Shown here: positions 16,505-29,997 of the stretch, one piece after another | How the letters are laid out: the number at the start of each line of letters is the position of its first letter | Numbering within the stretch: position 1 is the stretch's first letter | Origin: Rhizobium rhizogenes NBRC 13257 | GTDB taxonomy: Bacteria; Pseudomonadota; Alphaproteobacteria; Rhizobiales; Rhizobiaceae | Assembly: GCF_000696095.1 (NCBI RefSeq) | Contig: NZ_BAYX01000007.1 | Location: forward strand, 1 to 64,000 | Length of the DNA stretch: 64,000 nucleotides | Reading direction: 5' to 3' | Position numbers and translations under genes: made by a program | The notes under the pieces: generated by a model | What the model saw: only the letters and a program-made list of their open reading frames with translations | Told to the model about the DNA's origin: nothing | The model's database searches: none

Positions 16505-17440
16505 TTACCAGGCCGTCAGCCCCAGCAGCTTTTCACCCAAAGGTGTCAGAACCGCTGTCTCGGCATTATGCTTTTCCCATTCGCGCGGGTCGCCCGGAAA
16601 CGAGTCGCGCTTCGGATGATCGCGCTCGCGCCATAGGCGGATGCGCTCTTCCCTCTCGACGACATCGTCGAACTCGGCCGGGTGCATCGACACATACTGC
16701 GCCATACGCACGCGGTTTTCCGCATGGTTTGGGCGAACACCGTGAGCCAGCAGCGAATTGAAGATCATCAGGTCACCCGGCTCCATCTCGATATTGACGA
16801 CGGAAAGCCCCGTCATGTCGGGATGCATCGGGTCTCGATCCGCAGGCTGCGTCTTCTCCCATTCTTCGAAACGCTCGAATAGTTCCGGCACGCACTGAAA
16901 CCCGCCGACATCGCCGTCCTGCTTCTTCAGGCTGAGGACGCCCTGCACGCCGATCGGCAGCGGACGGCGCGATGTGTCCACATCCCAGTGAATGAAGCCG
17001 TTCGGATTGCCCCTGACCTTCTTCGGCGCATTGAGATTGGCGCGGTCGATCGTCACCCATAGATCTTCGCGGTCCCAGATATCGACAAAAACGTCATAGA
17101 TGCGCCGTTCCATGCGGTTGTCCCAGAGCGCCTGGTGATTATAGATCTCCAGCATGCCGGTGTTGTTGAGCTCCTTCATCTTGTGCTCGCGGCGTTGCGG
17201 CGCATACCAGGTCGAGGGATCGTTCGGATCCTTCTCGTCAAATGCCCAGAGCACCTCCACAAGCCGCTCGACATTGGCGGCGGGGACCGCCTGCCGCACG
17301 ATCACATAGCCCTTGGTGATCCAGTGCTGCCAGTCCTGCTGCGAAAGAACCCGCAATGGCAGCGTCTTCTTGATGTCCTTCAGTTGCGTCGTGACCGAAG
17401 AAGCGGTCGGATGAGCGTCTCGTTTCAAGGCCTGTTGCAT
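16505..17440 (-). CDS. Phytanoyl-CoA dioxygenase (PhyH) family protein
   Basis: A 311-residue Fe(II)/2-oxoglutarate oxygenase. The iron ligands are H151-W-D153 and H233 (LLAHGVRPNHAENRVRMAQYV), with R243 for 2-oxoglutarate. The long C-terminal charged tail ends in LLGLTAW. The gene is divergent from an AraC regulator 133 nt away, the usual layout for a substrate-induced catabolic enzyme. The substrate is not evident. It is distinct in sequence from the other PhyH-like protein at 915-1703. Confidence 0.83.
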   Translation of the reverse strand: MQQALKRDAHPTASSVTTQLKDIKKTLPLRVLSQQDWQHWITKGYVIVRQAVPAANVERLVEVLWAFDEKDPNDPSTWYAPQRREHKMKELNNTGMLEIYNHQALWDNRMERRIYDVFVDIWDREDLWVTIDRANLNAPKKVRGNPNGFIHWDVDTSRRPLPIGVQGVLSLKKQDGDVGGFQCVPELFERFEEWEKTQPADRDPMHPDMTGLSVVNIEMEPGDLMIFNSLLAHGVRPNHAENRVRMAQYVSMHPAEFDDVVEREERIRLWRERDHPKRDSFPGDPREWEKHNAETAVLTPLGEKLLGLTAW

Positions 17441-22535: not shown

Positions 22536-23534
22536 ATGACGTCAAAAAACAGTTCGCGCCTTTACGCTGCTGTTTCATCCCTGTTGTGGCCAGCCATCTT
22601 TTGCGCCGGCCTGACAGGCTCCTATTTCGCCTTCCAGTCCGATATGCATCTGCTGTGGTTCAACGTCACTTATTTCTCGATCGTGGCGATCATCGCGCTC
22701 TTCGAGCGGCTGATGCCCTATGAAGAGACCTGGCTGGAGAGCGATGGCGAGACGTTCAACAACATCGCTCATACGCTCCTGAGCAAGGGCGGCGTGCAGA
22801 TCGCCGCGGCCATTGGCACCTCATTCCCGATGGCGGTGGCGACCGTGGCGCAGCCTTTCCTGAGCCACAAGGCGAATATCTGGCCGGAGCAATGGCCGAT
22901 GGCCCTGCAGGTCGTGCTCGGGCTCGTCATCGCTGAATTCGGCCTCTATCTCGCCCATCGCCTTGCACATGAATATCTGTCGCTATGGCGCTTCCATGCC
23001 CTGCACCACAGCGTCGAACGCCTATGGGTCATCAATACCGGACGTTTCCATATCATCGACTCGCTGTTCAAGATCGCGCTCGGCCAGATCCCGCTCTATC
23101 TGCTCGGCGCGCCGCTGCCGGTCTTCCTGTGGATAGGCGCGGTCACGGCCTTCATCGGCCTTCTGACCCATTGCAACATCGATGTCCGTACCGGCCCGCT
23201 CGACTGGATCCTCTCCACTCCGCGCCTGCACCGCTGGCATCATTCCAAGCTGCTGGCCGAGGGCAATACCAATTATGGGGAAAACCTTGTGATCTGGGAC
23301 CAGATCCTCGGCACCTACTATAACCCACCTCGCCCCTCCTCCACCGACATCGGCATTACCGGCAAGGTCGCCGACAGTTTCGTTGCCCAACTCGTGCAGC
23401 CCTTTTCCAAGAAAGGCGCCAAGCAGATCATCGGCAAGAAGCCGAAGGAAGTCCGGGACAAGGAAGAACTGGCCGCCGCCAAGGCCGCCTCCCGGCGCAA
23501 GCAGGCCGAGGAGCCGATCCGCAAGTCAGGCTGA
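22536..23534 (+). CDS. Fatty-acid hydroxylase/sterol-desaturase superfamily membrane protein, OlsE candidate
   Basis: A 332-residue di-iron membrane enzyme with four or more helices. The His clusters HRLAHE (HX3H), HALHH (HX2HH) and HRWHH (HX2HH) are intact. The C-terminus is a charged Lys/Glu/Ala-rich tail from about residue 285. In R. tropici a protein of this superfamily, OlsE, hydroxylates the ornithine headgroup of ornithine lipids. The nearby olsC-like gene and the similar size make OlsE a reasonable guess, but other rhizobial paralogues exist and I cannot tell them apart from the sequence alone. Confidence 0.75.
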   Translation: MTSKNSSRLYAAVSSLLWPAIFCAGLTGSYFAFQSDMHLLWFNVTYFSIVAIIALFERLMPYEETWLESDGETFNNIAHTLLSKGGVQIAAAIGTSFPMAVATVAQPFLSHKANIWPEQWPMALQVVLGLVIAEFGLYLAHRLAHEYLSLWRFHALHHSVERLWVINTGRFHIIDSLFKIALGQIPLYLLGAPLPVFLWIGAVTAFIGLLTHCNIDVRTGPLDWILSTPRLHRWHHSKLLAEGNTNYGENLVIWDQILGTYYNPPRPSSTDIGITGKVADSFVAQLVQPFSKKGAKQIIGKKPKEVRDKEELAAAKAASRRKQAEEPIRKSG

Positions 23535-23801: not shown

Positions 23802-26800
23802 ATGGAAGGGAGATTTACCACAGATCATCTCAAGCAACTCCATAGAATATTTTTCACATCTCGTGAAATAGATAGACTTGAACGAGAATTCATTAAGCAA
23901 GGCATAGCACACTTTCATGTTTCCGGTGCCGGACACGAGTCGACGGCGCTGTTGAATGAATTCCTTCATGACGACGATTGGCTGCATCTGCACTATCGCG
24001 ACAAAGCCCTGATGCTGGCGCGCGGCATGCCCATTCGTGAGTTTTTTTCCAGCCTTCTCGCCACGGGCAATTCGCATTCCGCCGGCCGCCAGATGAGCGC
24101 GCATCTTTCCTCCCGCGCTCTCAACATCACGTCCATCGTTGGTCCGGTCGGCAACAATGCACTTCATGCCGTCGGTGCCAGCGCAGCGCTGAAGCATAAG
24201 GCAGGCATGCCGATCGCCATCTGTTGCGTTGGCGACGGCACCACGCAGCAAGGCGAATTTCTGGAAGCCGTGGCCGAAGCCGTGCGCGGCCAATATCCGG
24301 TCGTCTTCGTCGTCGAGGACAATAGTTTCTCCATCTCGACGCGGACCAGAAAGCAGACCTTCTTCGATCTGCCGACCGGCCCCGCACCATCCTTCTACGG
24401 CCTCGACATCATCCGTGCCGAAGGCGACGATCTGGCGGCCTCGCGCGAAGCCTTCCGCAAGGCCGTCCGCCATAGCCGCAACAACCGCACGCCGAGCCTT
24501 GTCGTCATCAACATGGAGCGGCTGACCGACCACACCAACGCCGACGACCAGAAGACCTATCGCACGCAGGATGAGATCGAGAACGCGGCTTACCGCGATC
24601 CTCTCATCAATTTGAGAGTCGCCCTGCTGAAGGCGGGTATCGACGACACCGCGCTGGACAAGATCGAAAAAGACCTGACTGCAGAAGTGCAGGCGGAAGC
24701 AGCCCTTGCCCGCAAGGAAGATGCGCCTAAGGTCGAGCCGGAAGCAAAAGCGCCCTACCCAGCCTCCTTCGACAAGACAGCCGAATATCGCGGCGGCGCC
24801 AGTGCTGCGACGCTGACGATGCGCGAGGCGCTGAACGGCGTGCTCGACAAGCAGCTGGCCAACAATCCGGATGTCGTCCTCTTCGGCCAGGACATCGAGG
24901 ACCCCAAGGGCGATGTCTTCGGCGTCACACGCGGCCTCAGCACGAAGTATCCCGAGCGCGTCTACAATGCGGCGCTGAGCGAATCGACCATCGTCGGCAC
25001 CGCCGTCGGCCGGGCGCTAGCCGGCCAGCGCCCCGTCGCCTTCCTGCAATTCGCCGATTTCCTGCCGCTCGCCTATAACCAGATCGTCTCGGAAATGGGC
25101 AGCATGTTCTGGCGCAGCAATGGCGACTGGGAATCGCCCGTCATCCTGATGGTGAGCTGCGGCGGTTACAAACCCGGCCTTGGACCGTTCCACGCGCAAA
25201 GCTTCGAGAGCATGCTGGCGCACACGCCCGGGATCGACGTCGTCATGCCCTCCACCGCCGGCGATGCTGCCGGCCTGCTCAATGCCGCTTTCGAATCCAG
25301 ACGCCCGACCGTCTTTCTCTATCCGAAGGCTGTGCTCAACAATTCCGACGGCCGCACCTCCGTCGATGTCGACCAGCATTTCGTCCGTCCCGGCCTGTCG
25401 CGTTATATCGCCCGCGGCCGCGACCTGACGCTGGTCACCTACGGCAACACGGTGTCGCTCTGCGCCAAGGCGGCAAGCGCCTTCGAGACCCAGGGATTTT
25501 CGGTCGAGGTCATCGACCTGCGTTCGATCTCGCCATGGGATGAGAAGGAAGTGCTGGCCAGCGCCAAGCGCACCAAGCGCCTGATCGTCGTGCATGAAGA
25601 CAACCGCACGGTCGGTATGGGCGCTGAAATCGTCGCCACCGTCTCCGAAAAGGCCGACGTGCCTGTCGTCGTCCGCCGGCTTGCCCGTTCTGACTCGCAT
25701 GTCCCCTTTAACTTCGGCAACCAGCTGGAAACGCTGCCATCCTACAGCAAGCTGGTCGATCTGATGGCCGAAGTCCTCGAATGCGAGGTCACCTGGCATG
25801 AAGAGGACAAGTCTGGCCCGACGGCCGCGATCAAGGCGATCGGCTCTGGCCCCGCCGACGAAAACGTGCTGGTGACCGATCTCCTGGTGAAGCCTGGCGA
25901 TACGATCGAGGTTGGCCAGCTCGTCGCGGTGGTCGAGGCGACCAAGGCTTCGGTCGAGATCTGCGCCAATATTGGCGGCGTGGTGCAGGAAGTCTTCGTC
26001 AAGATCGGCGACCAGATCGCCACCGACAGCCCACTTCTGACCGTGGACGCCGACCGCGACCTCAGCGAGCGCAATTTCGCGCTGGCTTCCGAGGTCCAGA
26101 ACAAGTTCGTGCTGCGCCGCCTGAAGTCGCACGCCATCCCGGCGCTGCGCCGCCATTCCGGTAATTTCACGGAAATCGCCGTCAGCGGCATGGGCTTTGC
26201 GACCGGCGCCCGCCGTGTCAGCAATGAAGAGATCATCCATAACTGGCCGAACCGGCGCGCAGAGGAAATCTTCGCGCTGACCGGCATCAAGAGCCGCTAT
26301 TGGGTCGGCCCCGGCGAAAGCACGCTGAGCCTGGCGACCAAGGCCGTTCGCGACCTTCTGCACCAGACCAATACGACGATCCATGACATGGACCTCGTCA
26401 TTGCCGCTACCGGCACGCCCGATATCGCGACGCCGTCGCTCGCAAGCCGCGTTTCGGTTGCCGTTGCCGAAGACGGCGTGCGGCCGTCGCTCGCCGCCTA
26501 CGACATGGGCGCCGCCTGCTCCGGCTATCTCTATGCCCTGCAGCAGGCTTACGATTTCATTGCCCAGCAGAACGACGCCAAGGTGCTGATCGTCACCTCG
26601 GAAGTGCTGTCACCGCTGCTCGACATGAGCGATTTCTCCACCGCCATCCTGTTCGGCGACGCCGCCACCGCCTGCCTGGTGACCAGCCGCGACATGGCGC
26701 GCAATCCGCTGTTTGCAGCCAGCCGCCCGGTCATCAGCGGCCGTCCGGAACCGGGCGATCTTCTCTATGTACCGCTGCCGGACAAGGGCGTCATTTCCAT

Positions 26801-27125
26801 GAACGGACGCTCGGTCTTCACCGAAGCCGTTCATTCCATGTCGCGCTCGATCGAGGATGCCTGCGTCGATGCAGGATTGGAGCTTGCCAATCTCGACCTT
26901 CTGGTGCCGCATCAGGCCAACCAGCGCATCATCGACACCATCGCCAAGCGCAGCGGCCGCCCGGCGCTGAGCGTCATCGAGAACTACGGCAACACCAGCT
27001 CGTCGAGCATTCCGCTCGCCATGATGCATGTCGCCAAGGAACGCTCCGAGCCACTCAACCTTGGCCTCGTCGCCTTCGGCGGCGGCATGACCTCGGGCGC
27101 AGCCATCGTACGCACGATCAAGTAA
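23802..27125 (+). CDS. Fusion: 2-oxoacid dehydrogenase E1-alpha/E1-beta, lipoyl domain and ketosynthase III
   Basis: A single 1107-residue open frame with four modules. Residues 1-300 are E1-alpha with the thiamine-diphosphate motif GDG (144-146)...N174. Residues 335-660 are E1-beta (transketolase-like; ALSEST with E394, then a C-terminal domain). Residues 685-750 are a lipoyl domain with the modifiable Lys K715 in VVEATKASVEI. Residues 790-1107 are FabH-type ketosynthase III with C906 (GAACSG), H1037 (PHQANQ) and N1064 (YGNTSSSS). No E2 acyltransferase core separates lipoyl and ketosynthase. I infer decarboxylation of a 2-oxoacid, acylation of the lipoyl arm and direct hand-off to Cys906 to prime a fatty acid or polyketide. 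AGGAAA precedes the ATG. The first 130 nt are clearly AT-richer than the rest. A terminator follows. Confidence 0.88.
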   Translation: MEGRFTTDHLKQLHRIFFTSREIDRLEREFIKQGIAHFHVSGAGHESTALLNEFLHDDDWLHLHYRDKALMLARGMPIREFFSSLLATGNSHSAGRQMSAHLSSRALNITSIVGPVGNNALHAVGASAALKHKAGMPIAICCVGDGTTQQGEFLEAVAEAVRGQYPVVFVVEDNSFSISTRTRKQTFFDLPTGPAPSFYGLDIIRAEGDDLAASREAFRKAVRHSRNNRTPSLVVINMERLTDHTNADDQKTYRTQDEIENAAYRDPLINLRVALLKAGIDDTALDKIEKDLTAEVQAEAALARKEDAPKVEPEAKAPYPASFDKTAEYRGGASAATLTMREALNGVLDKQLANNPDVVLFGQDIEDPKGDVFGVTRGLSTKYPERVYNAALSESTIVGTAVGRALAGQRPVAFLQFADFLPLAYNQIVSEMGSMFWRSNGDWESPVILMVSCGGYKPGLGPFHAQSFESMLAHTPGIDVVMPSTAGDAAGLLNAAFESRRPTVFLYPKAVLNNSDGRTSVDVDQHFVRPGLSRYIARGRDLTLVTYGNTVSLCAKAASAFETQGFSVEVIDLRSISPWDEKEVLASAKRTKRLIVVHEDNRTVGMGAEIVATVSEKADVPVVVRRLARSDSHVPFNFGNQLETLPSYSKLVDLMAEVLECEVTWHEEDKSGPTAAIKAIGSGPADENVLVTDLLVKPGDTIEVGQLVAVVEATKASVEICANIGGVVQEVFVKIGDQIATDSPLLTVDADRDLSERNFALASEVQNKFVLRRLKSHAIPALRRHSGNFTEIAVSGMGFATGARRVSNEEIIHNWPNRRAEEIFALTGIKSRYWVGPGESTLSLATKAVRDLLHQTNTTIHDMDLVIAATGTPDIATPSLASRVSVAVAEDGVRPSLAAYDMGAACSGYLYALQQAYDFIAQQNDAKVLIVTSEVLSPLLDMSDFSTAILFGDAATACLVTSRDMARNPLFAASRPVISGRPEPGDLLYVPLPDKGVISMNGRSVFTEAVHSMSRSIEDACVDAGLELANLDLLVPHQANQRIIDTIAKRSGRPALSVIENYGNTSSSSIPLAMMHVAKERSEPLNLGLVAFGGGMTSGAAIVRTIK

Positions 27126-27156
27126 CCGCAAACGGCTCTTCACATCGACCAAAACA

Positions 27157-27191
27157 AAACCCCGAAATCCGCAGCGGATTCCGGGGTTTTT
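27157..27191. terminator. Bidirectional terminator
   Basis: CCCCGAAATCCGC pairs with GCGGATTCCGGGG (13 bp, one mismatch, short loop) and is followed by TTTTT. On the opposite strand the stem is followed by TTTTG. It lies between the convergent fusion gene and the olsC-like gene. Confidence 0.8.
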
Positions 27192-27216: not shown

Positions 27217-28062
27217 CTACGCCTTCGGGCGGTTTCTCAGCGCCTCGGCTTCGGCATAGAATTTCTTTTCCCATTCTTTATGATTGTCGAGGCCCTCTTT
27301 GATGAAGGGCGTGAAGATCGCCAGGTTCATCAAAGCCCAGTTGACGATGCGGGCCGGGAATTTCAGCGGCTTGACGAAATCGACGAAGAGGACGACGCGG
27401 GTCTTGTCGGTGTGGTTCCAGGCCTCATGCTCATAGGCGTCGTCAAAGATCAGCGCCTTGCCTTCTTCCCAGTGGCAGATCTGCTTGTCGACGCGGATGG
27501 CGAGCTGGTCCTTCGGCTCCGGTACGATCAGGCCGACATGCAGGCGCAGCACGCCGTTATAGGGGCCGCGATGGGCGGGAAGGTGCTTGCCCGGCTCGAA
27601 GATCGAGAACATCGCCGTCGTCAGTCCCGGGATCTTCTGCACCGCCGCCCAGGTGTTCGGGCAGGCCTTGATGTTCTGCTCCGACTTCACGCCGAATCCG
27701 AGAAGGAAGAAGGTCTTCCAGCGGTTATCGGTCGAGATGGTCTTCACATCGGTAGAAATGTCCTGGAAGGTCGGCAGCTCACTCTGGCGTTCCAGCACCT
27801 TTTCCAGCTCGGCACGGATCGCGGGATAATCCTTCTCGATCTCGGCGGCCCAGGGGAAAGTGGCGTTGTCAAAGACCGGCGGATTGCCGAGCTTGGCGTA
27901 TTTCAAATTAAGGCTTTCGGCCCAGGCGACGACGCCCATAAAGAAGCGTGTGACTGTGCTTGGGCGATCCATCGGCGCGATGCCGGTTGTACCAAAGGTT
28001 TGTTCCGGAGCATTCGGCTCGGCGGTTGTGGGAGCTGGTGCGCTCAAAGTGCTCTCCGTCAT
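27217..28062 (-). CDS. olsC: Aspartyl/asparaginyl beta-hydroxylase-family lipid hydroxylase, OlsC-like
   Basis: A 281-residue protein. The Fe/2OG core runs from about residue 100 to 230, with PAHRGPYNGVLRLHVGL (H164) and DDAYEHEAWNHTDKTRVVLFVDF (H212, R222; quoted in part), the pattern of LpxO and OlsC. In R. tropici, OlsC hydroxylates the secondary fatty acid of ornithine lipids and lies beside the ClC gene sycA. The same neighbour is present here, 327 nt upstream on the same strand, which makes olsC more likely than lpxO. The Pro/Ala/Thr-rich first 30 residues may be an extension; Met31 is a possible alternative start. Confidence 0.8.
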   Translation of the reverse strand: MTESTLSAPAPTTAEPNAPEQTFGTTGIAPMDRPSTVTRFFMGVVAWAESLNLKYAKLGNPPVFDNATFPWAAEIEKDYPAIRAELEKVLERQSELPTFQDISTDVKTISTDNRWKTFFLLGFGVKSEQNIKACPNTWAAVQKIPGLTTAMFSIFEPGKHLPAHRGPYNGVLRLHVGLIVPEPKDQLAIRVDKQICHWEEGKALIFDDAYEHEAWNHTDKTRVVLFVDFVKPLKFPARIVNWALMNLAIFTPFIKEGLDNHKEWEKKFYAEAEALRNRPKA

Positions 28063-28389: not shown

Positions 28390-29736
28390 TCACGGCTCAT
28401 CTCGCTTGGTCTTGGTGTTCAGCAGCGAGCGGATCGATACGCCGGACGAAATGCCGCCGTCAGCGGCACCCTTCACGACGCCGACACGCTGCGACAAATA
28501 GATGCTGGTATGGCCGCTACAGATGTAGGCGAGGAAGCAGGCGACGGCGAGATAGACCGTGTGTGTCGCACCGAAGAGCTCGATGCCCATGATCATGCAG
28601 GCGAGCGGCGTATTGGTAGCGCCTGCGAAAACCGCGACGAAACCGAGTGCCGCGAAGAGATCGACCGGCGCGCCAAGAATGGCGGCGATGGCATTGCCAA
28701 GTGCGGCGCCGATGAAGAACAGCGGCGTCACCTCGCCGCCTTTGAAGCCAGAGCTCAGCGTCACGATAGTAAAGACCGCCTTCCAGAACCAGCTGCAATA
28801 ATCGACGCGCGCCGGATCGAAGAAGCCCGGGATCGTCGCATCGCCAGGATTGGGTGACCAGACGCCGAGACCGAGATATTCTCGGGTGCCGAGCGCATAG
28901 ACGAGGCCGATCAGTACGATGCTGGCAATCACCGGCCGGAGCGGCGCATAGGCACAAACTTTCTTGAAGGCAGCCGACATCCTGTGGGAAATCTCGCTGA
29001 AGCAGCGGGCCATCAGCCCGAAGAGCACGCCGGCAATGCCGACCTTCAGAAGCAGCAGCGCATCGAGATGGAAGGTGCTAGCCGGCGTGCCGGCGAGATA
29101 GGCGATATGGTACTGGATGTGCTCGATACCCCAGGCATGGCAGGTCCAGTCGGCCGCGATCGCCGCCACAAGGCTGGGGATCAGCGCTTCATATTGCATA
29201 CGGCCGATGGTCAGCACTTCGAGCGCGAAGACTGCGCCTGCGATCGGCGTACCGAACACCGCGCCGAAACCGGCGGCGATGCCGGCCATCAGCAGGATGC
29301 GGACTTCGGCGTGGCTCAGTCGGAAAAACCTGGCAAAGGCACTGGCGATGCTGCCGCCGAGCTGCACCGCCGTTCCCTCGCGCCCCGCCGAACCGCCGAC
29401 CAGATGCGTCAGGACGGTCGAGACCAGGATGAACGGCGCCATGCGCAGCGGTACGCCACCGCCCGGCTCATGGATCTGCTCGACGATCAGATTATTGCCG
29501 CCCTCCGCGCCCCGTCCGAAACGCTGGTACGCCAGCACCATCAGGAAACCGGCAACCGGCATCAGGAAGATCAGCCAGGGATAGTCGAACCGCGCCTGCG
29601 TCGCCCGGTCAAGGCTCCAGAGAAACAATGCACAGAGCGAGCCGACCACGGCCGCCATCGGCACCACCAGAAAGATCCATTTGAATATGCTGCGCAACTG
29701 CTGGAAACGATGATGAAAGAACTCGGATGCCGACAT
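28390..29736 (-). CDS. sycA: ClC-family chloride channel/transporter, SycA-like
   Basis: A 448-residue membrane protein; the ATG at 29736 follows GGGAGGGG, and a 20-codon extension lacks support. It shows the ClC selectivity-filter motifs as [15 protein letters not shown] (GREGT in place of GREGP) and [18 protein letters not shown], with about 10-12 helices. In R. tropici the ClC homologue sycA and the adjacent olsC were both linked to acid tolerance and symbiotic efficiency. The same pair here supports that assignment. It may be a Cl-/H+ exchanger; the gating glutamate E of GREG is present. Confidence 0.83.
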
Positions 29737-29997
29737 CAGTTCGCCCCTCCCGGAAGACCAGCGATGAGCCTGACGGGGACAAGGATCATAAAACAAAGTT
29801 GGGGTAACAGCAGGATTGCGGACACGACTCTACTCCTTCGCCCCACCGGGCACGTTGAGTAGGAGTCATCAGCTTCCCTGAATCTTCAGAGCAGCGGTTC
29901 GGCCACCATGGCCCGGCAGAAATCCATTACCGTTGGATTTTTCATACAGATAAGGAAGCGTCCCTGTCAATCCGGGCGCCGCGGATGCGGCCGCCCT

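Follow-up and report, generated by a model that had tools for sequence, protein, structure and literature searches.

Introduction

To our knowledge, acyl groups derived from 2-oxoacids enter fatty-acid and polyketide synthesis in the form of acyl-coenzyme A (acyl-CoA), except in some assembly lines, where an E2 acyltransferase passes them on. Branched-chain E1 enzymes consist of separate alpha and beta chains, work with a partner E2 and lead to an acyl-CoA product. In naphthyridinomycin biosynthesis, the E1-like enzyme NapB/NapD charges a lipoyl arm, which in turn supplies a carrier protein. Here we describe a gene in a 64,000-nucleotide stretch of Rhizobium rhizogenes NBRC 13257 (contig NZ_BAYX01000007.1, positions 1 to 64,000; hereafter the window), whose 1107-residue product, P0001, joins E1-alpha, E1-beta, a lipoyl domain and a FabH-type ketosynthase (ketoacyl-ACP synthase III, KAS III) in one chain. 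NapB/NapD share with it the E1-dependent loading of a lipoyl arm, whereas they are separate proteins with an E2 and an acyl carrier protein (ACP) and without KAS III. A passage of PMC10415282 presents actinobacterial OdhA as a two-in-one 2-oxoglutarate dehydrogenase; as portrayed there, OdhA likewise unites a decarboxylase and an acyl-transferring step in one polypeptide, but its second step is an E2-type succinyl transfer and not a ketosynthase reaction.

We propose that P0001 is a 2-oxoacid-primed 3-oxoacyl-ACP synthase contained in one polypeptide, with KAS III in place of E2, and we regard this as probable. The proposal draws on the domain order, the full set of catalytic residues, the lack of an E2, the loss of the residues that hold CoA adenine in FabH and the retention of the fusion in distant groups; we infer lipoylation, the direction in which the acyl group moves, its acceptor (ACP), the product and an E3 partner. 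The modules are known one by one. In the open-access literature, subscription papers lying outside its coverage, we found no description of an enzyme of this build.

Results

A four-domain fusion in one reading frame

The gene and its parts are as follows.

23802-27125, + strand: gene for the 1107-aa fusion protein P0001 (E1-alpha, E1-beta, lipoyl and KAS III domains), which has homologues
23859-24734, + strand: E1-alpha domain, residues 20-311 (Pfam E1_dh, 7.5e-45), with the thiamine diphosphate (ThDP) motif G144-D-G...N174, R240 and H244
24810-25727, + strand: E1-beta domain, residues 337-642 (Pfam Transket_pyr and Transketolase_C), with H464
25860-26042, + strand: lipoyl domain, residues 687-747 (Pfam Biotin_lipoyl, 1.9e-12), with the lipoyl lysine K715 at nt 25944-25946
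26127-26165, + strand: linker between lipoyl domain and ketosynthase, residues 776-788, poorly ordered (predicted local distance difference test, pLDDT, <50 in the AlphaFold2 model)
26172-27116, + strand: KAS III domain, residues 791-1105, with C906/H1037/N1064 and replaced CoA-stacking residues (E822, F945)

Translation of 23802-27125 gave an unbroken frame of 1107 residues and a stop. An earlier note, made from the sequence alone, had read this architecture here and had located G144-D-G, N174, K715, C906, H1037 and N1064; translation and Pfam bear out both the frame with its four modules and the position of each residue. The Pfam matches comprised Transket_pyr (residues 337-512), Transketolase_C (536-642), ACP_syn_III (900-967) and ACP_syn_III_C (1023-1104). 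The E2 core (2-oxoacid_dh, PF00198) was not among the eight Pfam families matched in P0001, nor did it match any of five homologues put through Pfam, and Pfam detected neither an E3 domain nor an ACP in P0001, in agreement with the claim that the protein lacks an E2 core and an E3. The best family model for the ketosynthase domain was the FabH subfamily NF006829 (234.4 bits). P0001 falls below the curated FabH cut-offs (234.4 vs 249 for NF006829 and 191.9 vs 292.1 bits for TIGR00747), and one homologue, L069, lies above the former (253.6) and below the latter (217.7).

The AlphaFold2 model of P0001 had a mean pLDDT of 88.2 and a predicted template modelling score (pTM) of 0.70, from an input of 46 sequences (the alignment took in 46 of 83). 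Among the 50 Foldseek matches listed for this model, E1-beta chains, FabH/BioZ chains and two-domain ThDP enzymes matched separately, and no structure covered the whole build. The ratio of nonsynonymous to synonymous substitution rates (dN/dS) against six Rhizobium orthologues was 0.025-0.129 across the four domains, all of which are under purifying selection. Together with the full-length homologues described below, these low values confirm the four-domain, single-frame fusion, far above chance.

Distribution of the fusion and its nearest relatives

The search for full-length homologues that the earlier note had suggested yielded 82, at 44-98% identity, two of them cut at contig ends (L065 and L106). 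Eighty come from a scan of named genomes with two patterns, both in E1-alpha, which confirmed 139 loci; the 80 are those that matched best. Each of these 80 carries the fusion in one frame, and they span about nine phyla. Shorter builds could sit among the 59 confirmed loci beyond them. Two further copies (60% and 47% identity) came from other searches. The 80 loci of the scan belong to the Rhizobium tropici/rhizogenes group, Devosia, Planctomycetota, Verrucomicrobiota, Kiritimatiellota, Lentisphaerota, Spirochaetota and Sumerlaeota, with single members from a cyanobacterium (a Xenococcus metagenome-assembled genome, MAG), a Burkholderiales, a Betaproteobacteria MAG and a MAG titled Deltaproteobacteria. 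Because many loci are metagenome bins, single taxonomic placements may be wrong. The fusion is thus a family and not an accident.

Within the genus (60 genomes, its own included), the gene occurs at 88-100% identity in 17 genomes. In G003 it is divided between two contigs, and G008 carries a copy of 60% identity elsewhere in its genome; among the 40 further genomes of the order searched alongside, no match was better than 3e-83. The fusion is rare at wider range, being present in 2 of 397 order genomes and 2 of 398 phylum genomes at E<=1e-90, with its own genome counted in both; these searches returned a 47% homologue, matching over its whole length, in another family. Spread on plasmids was considered and rejected: all 226 plasmid records at E 1e-60 were below 60% identity, and in the 4 that covered at least 80% of the query the annotation divides the match into separate genes.

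In a tree of 33 E1 rows, nine of them other E1s and none an E1 of solved structure, the fusion E1s formed a single clade (support 100/100). Lentisphaerota and cyanobacterial rows paired, and the G008 copy (L025), from the same genus as P0001, fell among the Devosia rows. Both placements suggest transfer, and the G008 copy was likely acquired horizontally, judging from its position in the tree. The sister of the fusion clade (99/98) is an E1 encoded beside assembly lines that start with a lipoyl domain.

These assembly lines lie on the Streptomyces plasmids NZ_CP061282.1 and NZ_CP108424.1, where a fused E1 alpha/beta gene directly precedes a giant synthase whose first domains are lipoyl, E2, ACP and ketosynthase (L119:14956-32091 and L120:11869-25896). 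They resemble P0001 in the fused E1 and in that the lipoyl domain precedes the ketosynthase. They differ in that the E1 is encoded apart from the synthase, the lipoyl domain and ketosynthase are separated by an E2 core and an ACP (E2 and ACP matched in both synthases, P0003 and P0004, and neither in P0001) and the ketosynthase is of the ketoacyl-synt type instead of KAS III. By their domain content, these synthases may load a start unit from a 2-oxoacid without CoA. The first cluster contains pabB, ornithine cyclodeaminase and nonribosomal peptide synthetase genes, which suggests a streptogramin-like product. The pertinent passage of a review gives the starter of pristinamycin II as isobutyryl-CoA (PMC6963833); the Streptomyces synthases, judging from the order of their domains, could instead be loaded via lipoyl and E2.

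An order-mate encodes a 922-residue frame (L033:1006-3774) that, from its sequence, also carries E1-alpha, E1-beta and lipoyl domains in one chain, but it stops after the lipoyl domain and its E1 lies elsewhere in the tree.

Catalytic residues and the CoA-adenine site

Across the 82 homologues, the E1 residues G144, N174, R240 and H244, the E1-beta residue H464 and the lipoyl lysine K715 are invariant, and D145 and G146 of the ThDP motif are kept in 78/82 and 81/82. A small correction to the earlier note concerns the second part of the ThDP motif, which reads DN in P0001 and in four of five compared sequences and NN in the fifth (L025); its final Asn, N174, is the residue that does not vary. 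In the ketosynthase, C906 and H1037 occur in 82/82 and N1064 in 81/82, the single gap being the contig-end fragment L106. R1042, the equivalent of FabH Arg249, which we take to be an ACP contact, is likewise invariant.

The nearest solved E1-alpha by sequence is that of the Thermus branched-chain E1 (1um9). Both this enzyme and the human one (1dtw) share H244 and the DD...YR motif with the fusion, and H244, D248, D249 and R254 of this motif are kept in 82/82. H244 aligns with His291-alpha of human BCKDH, which the title of PDB entry 1ols names, with His146-beta', for reductive acylation. The likeness to branched-chain E1s makes a short or branched 2-oxoacid our guess for the substrate.

A ketosynthase fed by a lipoyl arm would be expected to keep its chemistry and might lose the parts that hold CoA, a check that could have failed. 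In a superposition described in part of PMC4606726, CoA bound to E. coli FabH has its adenine stacked between Trp32 and Arg151. None of the 82 homologues has Trp at the first position (47 Asp, 29 Glu, that is D/E in 76, and 6 others) and none has Arg at the second (66 Phe, 10 Pro and 6 others). Both residues are present in all 27 control FabH rows with an intact triad and in 7/7 of a second KAS III family (NCBIfam PRK05963, presumably BioZ; 7 of 8 loci extracted). A first extraction of the FabH controls recovered 22 of 31 fetched loci, with W and R in 22/22; a looser one yielded 31 rows (28 with W, 27 with R), of which the 4 lacking part of the triad may be wrong frames. Thus, FabH/KAS III and BioZ share with the fusion the fold and the Cys/His/Asn triad, whereas the fusion family does not keep the Trp32/Arg151 pair. 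The joint loss of Trp32 and Arg151, with its mostly acidic replacement, fits a hand-off from lipoyl arm to ketosynthase and carries the argument for it. For the earlier note's proposal that the acyl group bypasses acyl-CoA in this way, the result, together with the kept triad and Arg249 equivalent, is an argument from sequence.

Proposed reaction and alternatives

In the proposed reaction, the E1 domains would bind ThDP and decarboxylate a 2-oxoacid, and the acyl group would be transferred reductively onto lipoyl-Lys715. The lipoyl arm would then bring it to Cys906 of KAS III, with neither E2 nor CoA taking part. His1037 and Asn1064 would decarboxylate malonyl-ACP, so that condensation would give 3-oxoacyl-ACP, and a free E3 would re-oxidise dihydrolipoyl-Lys715. 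We lean slightly towards a widespread enzyme class that, with E3, converts 2-oxoacid + malonyl-ACP + NAD (nicotinamide adenine dinucleotide) to 3-oxoacyl-ACP + 2 CO2 + NADH, bypassing the CoA pool, in Rhizobium, Devosia, Planctomycetota, Verrucomicrobiota, Spirochaetota and others. If this is true, a ketosynthase fed directly by a lipoyl arm would be a third route beside the two known to us, chain initiation would follow the state of 2-oxoacids and NAD and not that of the CoA pools, and the enzyme would offer a compact tool for odd starter units; if the reaction is shown, the build merits a class of its own. As a single gene present in named Rhizobium and Devosia isolates, it is open to direct testing.

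KAS III might instead only load an ACP thiol with the acyl group carried by the lipoyl arm, as a substitute E2 that forms no C-C bond. The nearest analogues, the starts of the Streptomyces synthases, have E2 and ACP after the lipoyl domain, and the loss of the CoA-adenine residues with retention of the Arg249 equivalent would suit such a loader. The complete triad speaks against it: the His and Asn of FabH serve malonyl-ACP decarboxylation, so their conservation favours condensation over plain acyl loading, and we consider a loader unlikely.

We find it slightly less likely again that KAS III acts on a partner other than ACP, such as a small-molecule nucleophile or a beta-keto acid, to make a signal or secondary metabolite. 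Its relatives PqsD and DarB do such chemistry, P0001 matches the DarB model weakly (28.7 bits), and the identified neighbours of the fusion include no fatty-acid gene, except for a possible reductase in one spirochaete. However, the top family match of the domain is the FabH subfamily, and the Arg249 equivalent is invariant.

A transketolase-like E1 that draws a glycolyl group from a sugar phosphate for loading, for which NapB/NapD in naphthyridinomycin biosynthesis is a precedent, would accord with a pocket motif, GPVG, unlike that of branched-chain E1s; the retention of the branched-chain E1-alpha residues in all homologues makes it improbable. That P0001 is an ordinary 2-oxoacid dehydrogenase component served by a separate E2, of which the genome has four genes elsewhere, with the ketosynthase a mere passenger, is very improbable given its own lipoyl domain, the retained triad, purifying selection on every domain and maintenance of the fusion at 44-60% identity in other groups.

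Several observations weigh against 2-oxoacid-primed condensation as proposed. The 82 rows are related and not independent events, 26 of them coming from one Rhizobium group. The GPVG motif (G114 in 65/82, V116 in 75/82) replaces the SPIA/SPLA of branched-chain E1s, so the substrate cannot be read from it and may not be branched-chain. The Arg36 equivalent, a phosphopantetheine contact, is still Arg in 40/82 (Leu in 39/82), so part of the CoA/ACP site persists in half of the family. According to a passage of PMC3734052, PqsD takes anthraniloyl-CoA despite Phe32 and carries Arg36 and Arg151; loss of Trp32 alone is therefore not decisive. The AlphaFold2 model is a monomer, silent on reach between subunits. 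Around the 54 non-Rhizobium loci, we found no specific partner gene among the first 60 of 195 clusters of neighbouring open reading frames (ORFs) and the 20 neighbours run through Pfam.

Partner functions and genomic surroundings

A point absent from the earlier note is that the lipoyl arm must be re-oxidised at each turnover and a free E3 is therefore required; the genome has two E3 genes over the family cut-off, both away from the fusion, as well as lipA. An ordinary FabH over the cut-off is present in this genome and in 12/12 distant fusion-carrying genomes tested. We therefore reject the fusion as a replacement for FabH; it is an addition and would provide a second way to start chains.

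The features around the gene are as follows.

16505-17440, - strand: oxygenase resembling phytanoyl-CoA dioxygenase (PF05721, 29.3 bits); a chlorinating-enzyme model matches weakly, far below its cut-off
22536-23534, + strand: olsE, ornithine lipid hydroxylase, directly upstream of the fusion (NF052566, 567.9 bits vs cut-off 475)
27156-27190, - strand: terminator-like hairpin of 16 pairs between the convergent fusion gene and olsC
27217-28062, - strand: olsC, ornithine lipid acyl 2-hydroxylase, convergent (NF052565, 534.6 bits vs cut-off 450)
28390-29796, - strand: ClC-type channel adjoining olsC (PF00654), the name sycA being taken from the arrangement in the literature

The window holds 8 terminator-like sites, vs a mean of 5.0 in shuffles, and the hairpin between the fusion and olsC has the longest stem among them (the next has 7 pairs). 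For R. tropici, part of PMC5936775 links a sycA-olsC cluster to acid tolerance.

The lipid-modifying neighbours recorded in the earlier note recur in Rhizobium, where olsE lies upstream on the same strand in 26/26 loci (gap between the two matches 227-322 bases in 24 and about 1.1 kb in 2) and olsC within 10 kb downstream in 24/26. Outside it, the 20 neighbouring ORFs that Pfam identified included no Ols gene; the ornithine-lipid link is a Rhizobium-only association. Within the genus, olsE occurs in 39 of 60 genomes and the fusion in 19, of which 18 have it beside olsE and G008 has it elsewhere. The olsE regions of eight fusion-less genomes and of G008 contained no olsC above 40% identity.

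In 14 of the 24 Rhizobium loci with olsC, it lies 3.85-3.97 kb from the fusion instead of <0.5 kb. The content of the extra stretch was examined for two loci, L059 and L060; in L059 (13567-17096), it holds PspA-like, YqiJ-like and flotillin-like genes, which suggests a membrane-stress island.

A conserved partner gene outside Rhizobium was sought and rejected: clusters 0-6, common to most loci, lay almost wholly inside the fusion gene itself (340 of 345 members). Of the clusters listed, two others span phyla, one of two-component regulators in 10 loci and one of ABC transporters in 7; both are large families, whose members lie on either strand and at scattered distances from the fusion. A release-factor ORF is common to the Devosia loci and one spirochaete, and the remaining identified clusters are clade-specific. 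With neighbours that vary in this way across groups, the chemistry is probably self-contained, ACP and E3 being supplied by the cell. One of the 20 neighbours, just downstream of the fusion in the spirochaete locus L083, is a short-chain dehydrogenase and might act as a ketoreductase. In five Pirellulales/Planctomycetaceae loci (L080, L087, L102, L111 and L117), an ORF of 208-223 aa follows the fusion by 7-22 bases on the same strand; that of L080 (13328-13999) carries two bacterial-microcompartment shell (BMC) domains, and the other four cluster with it.

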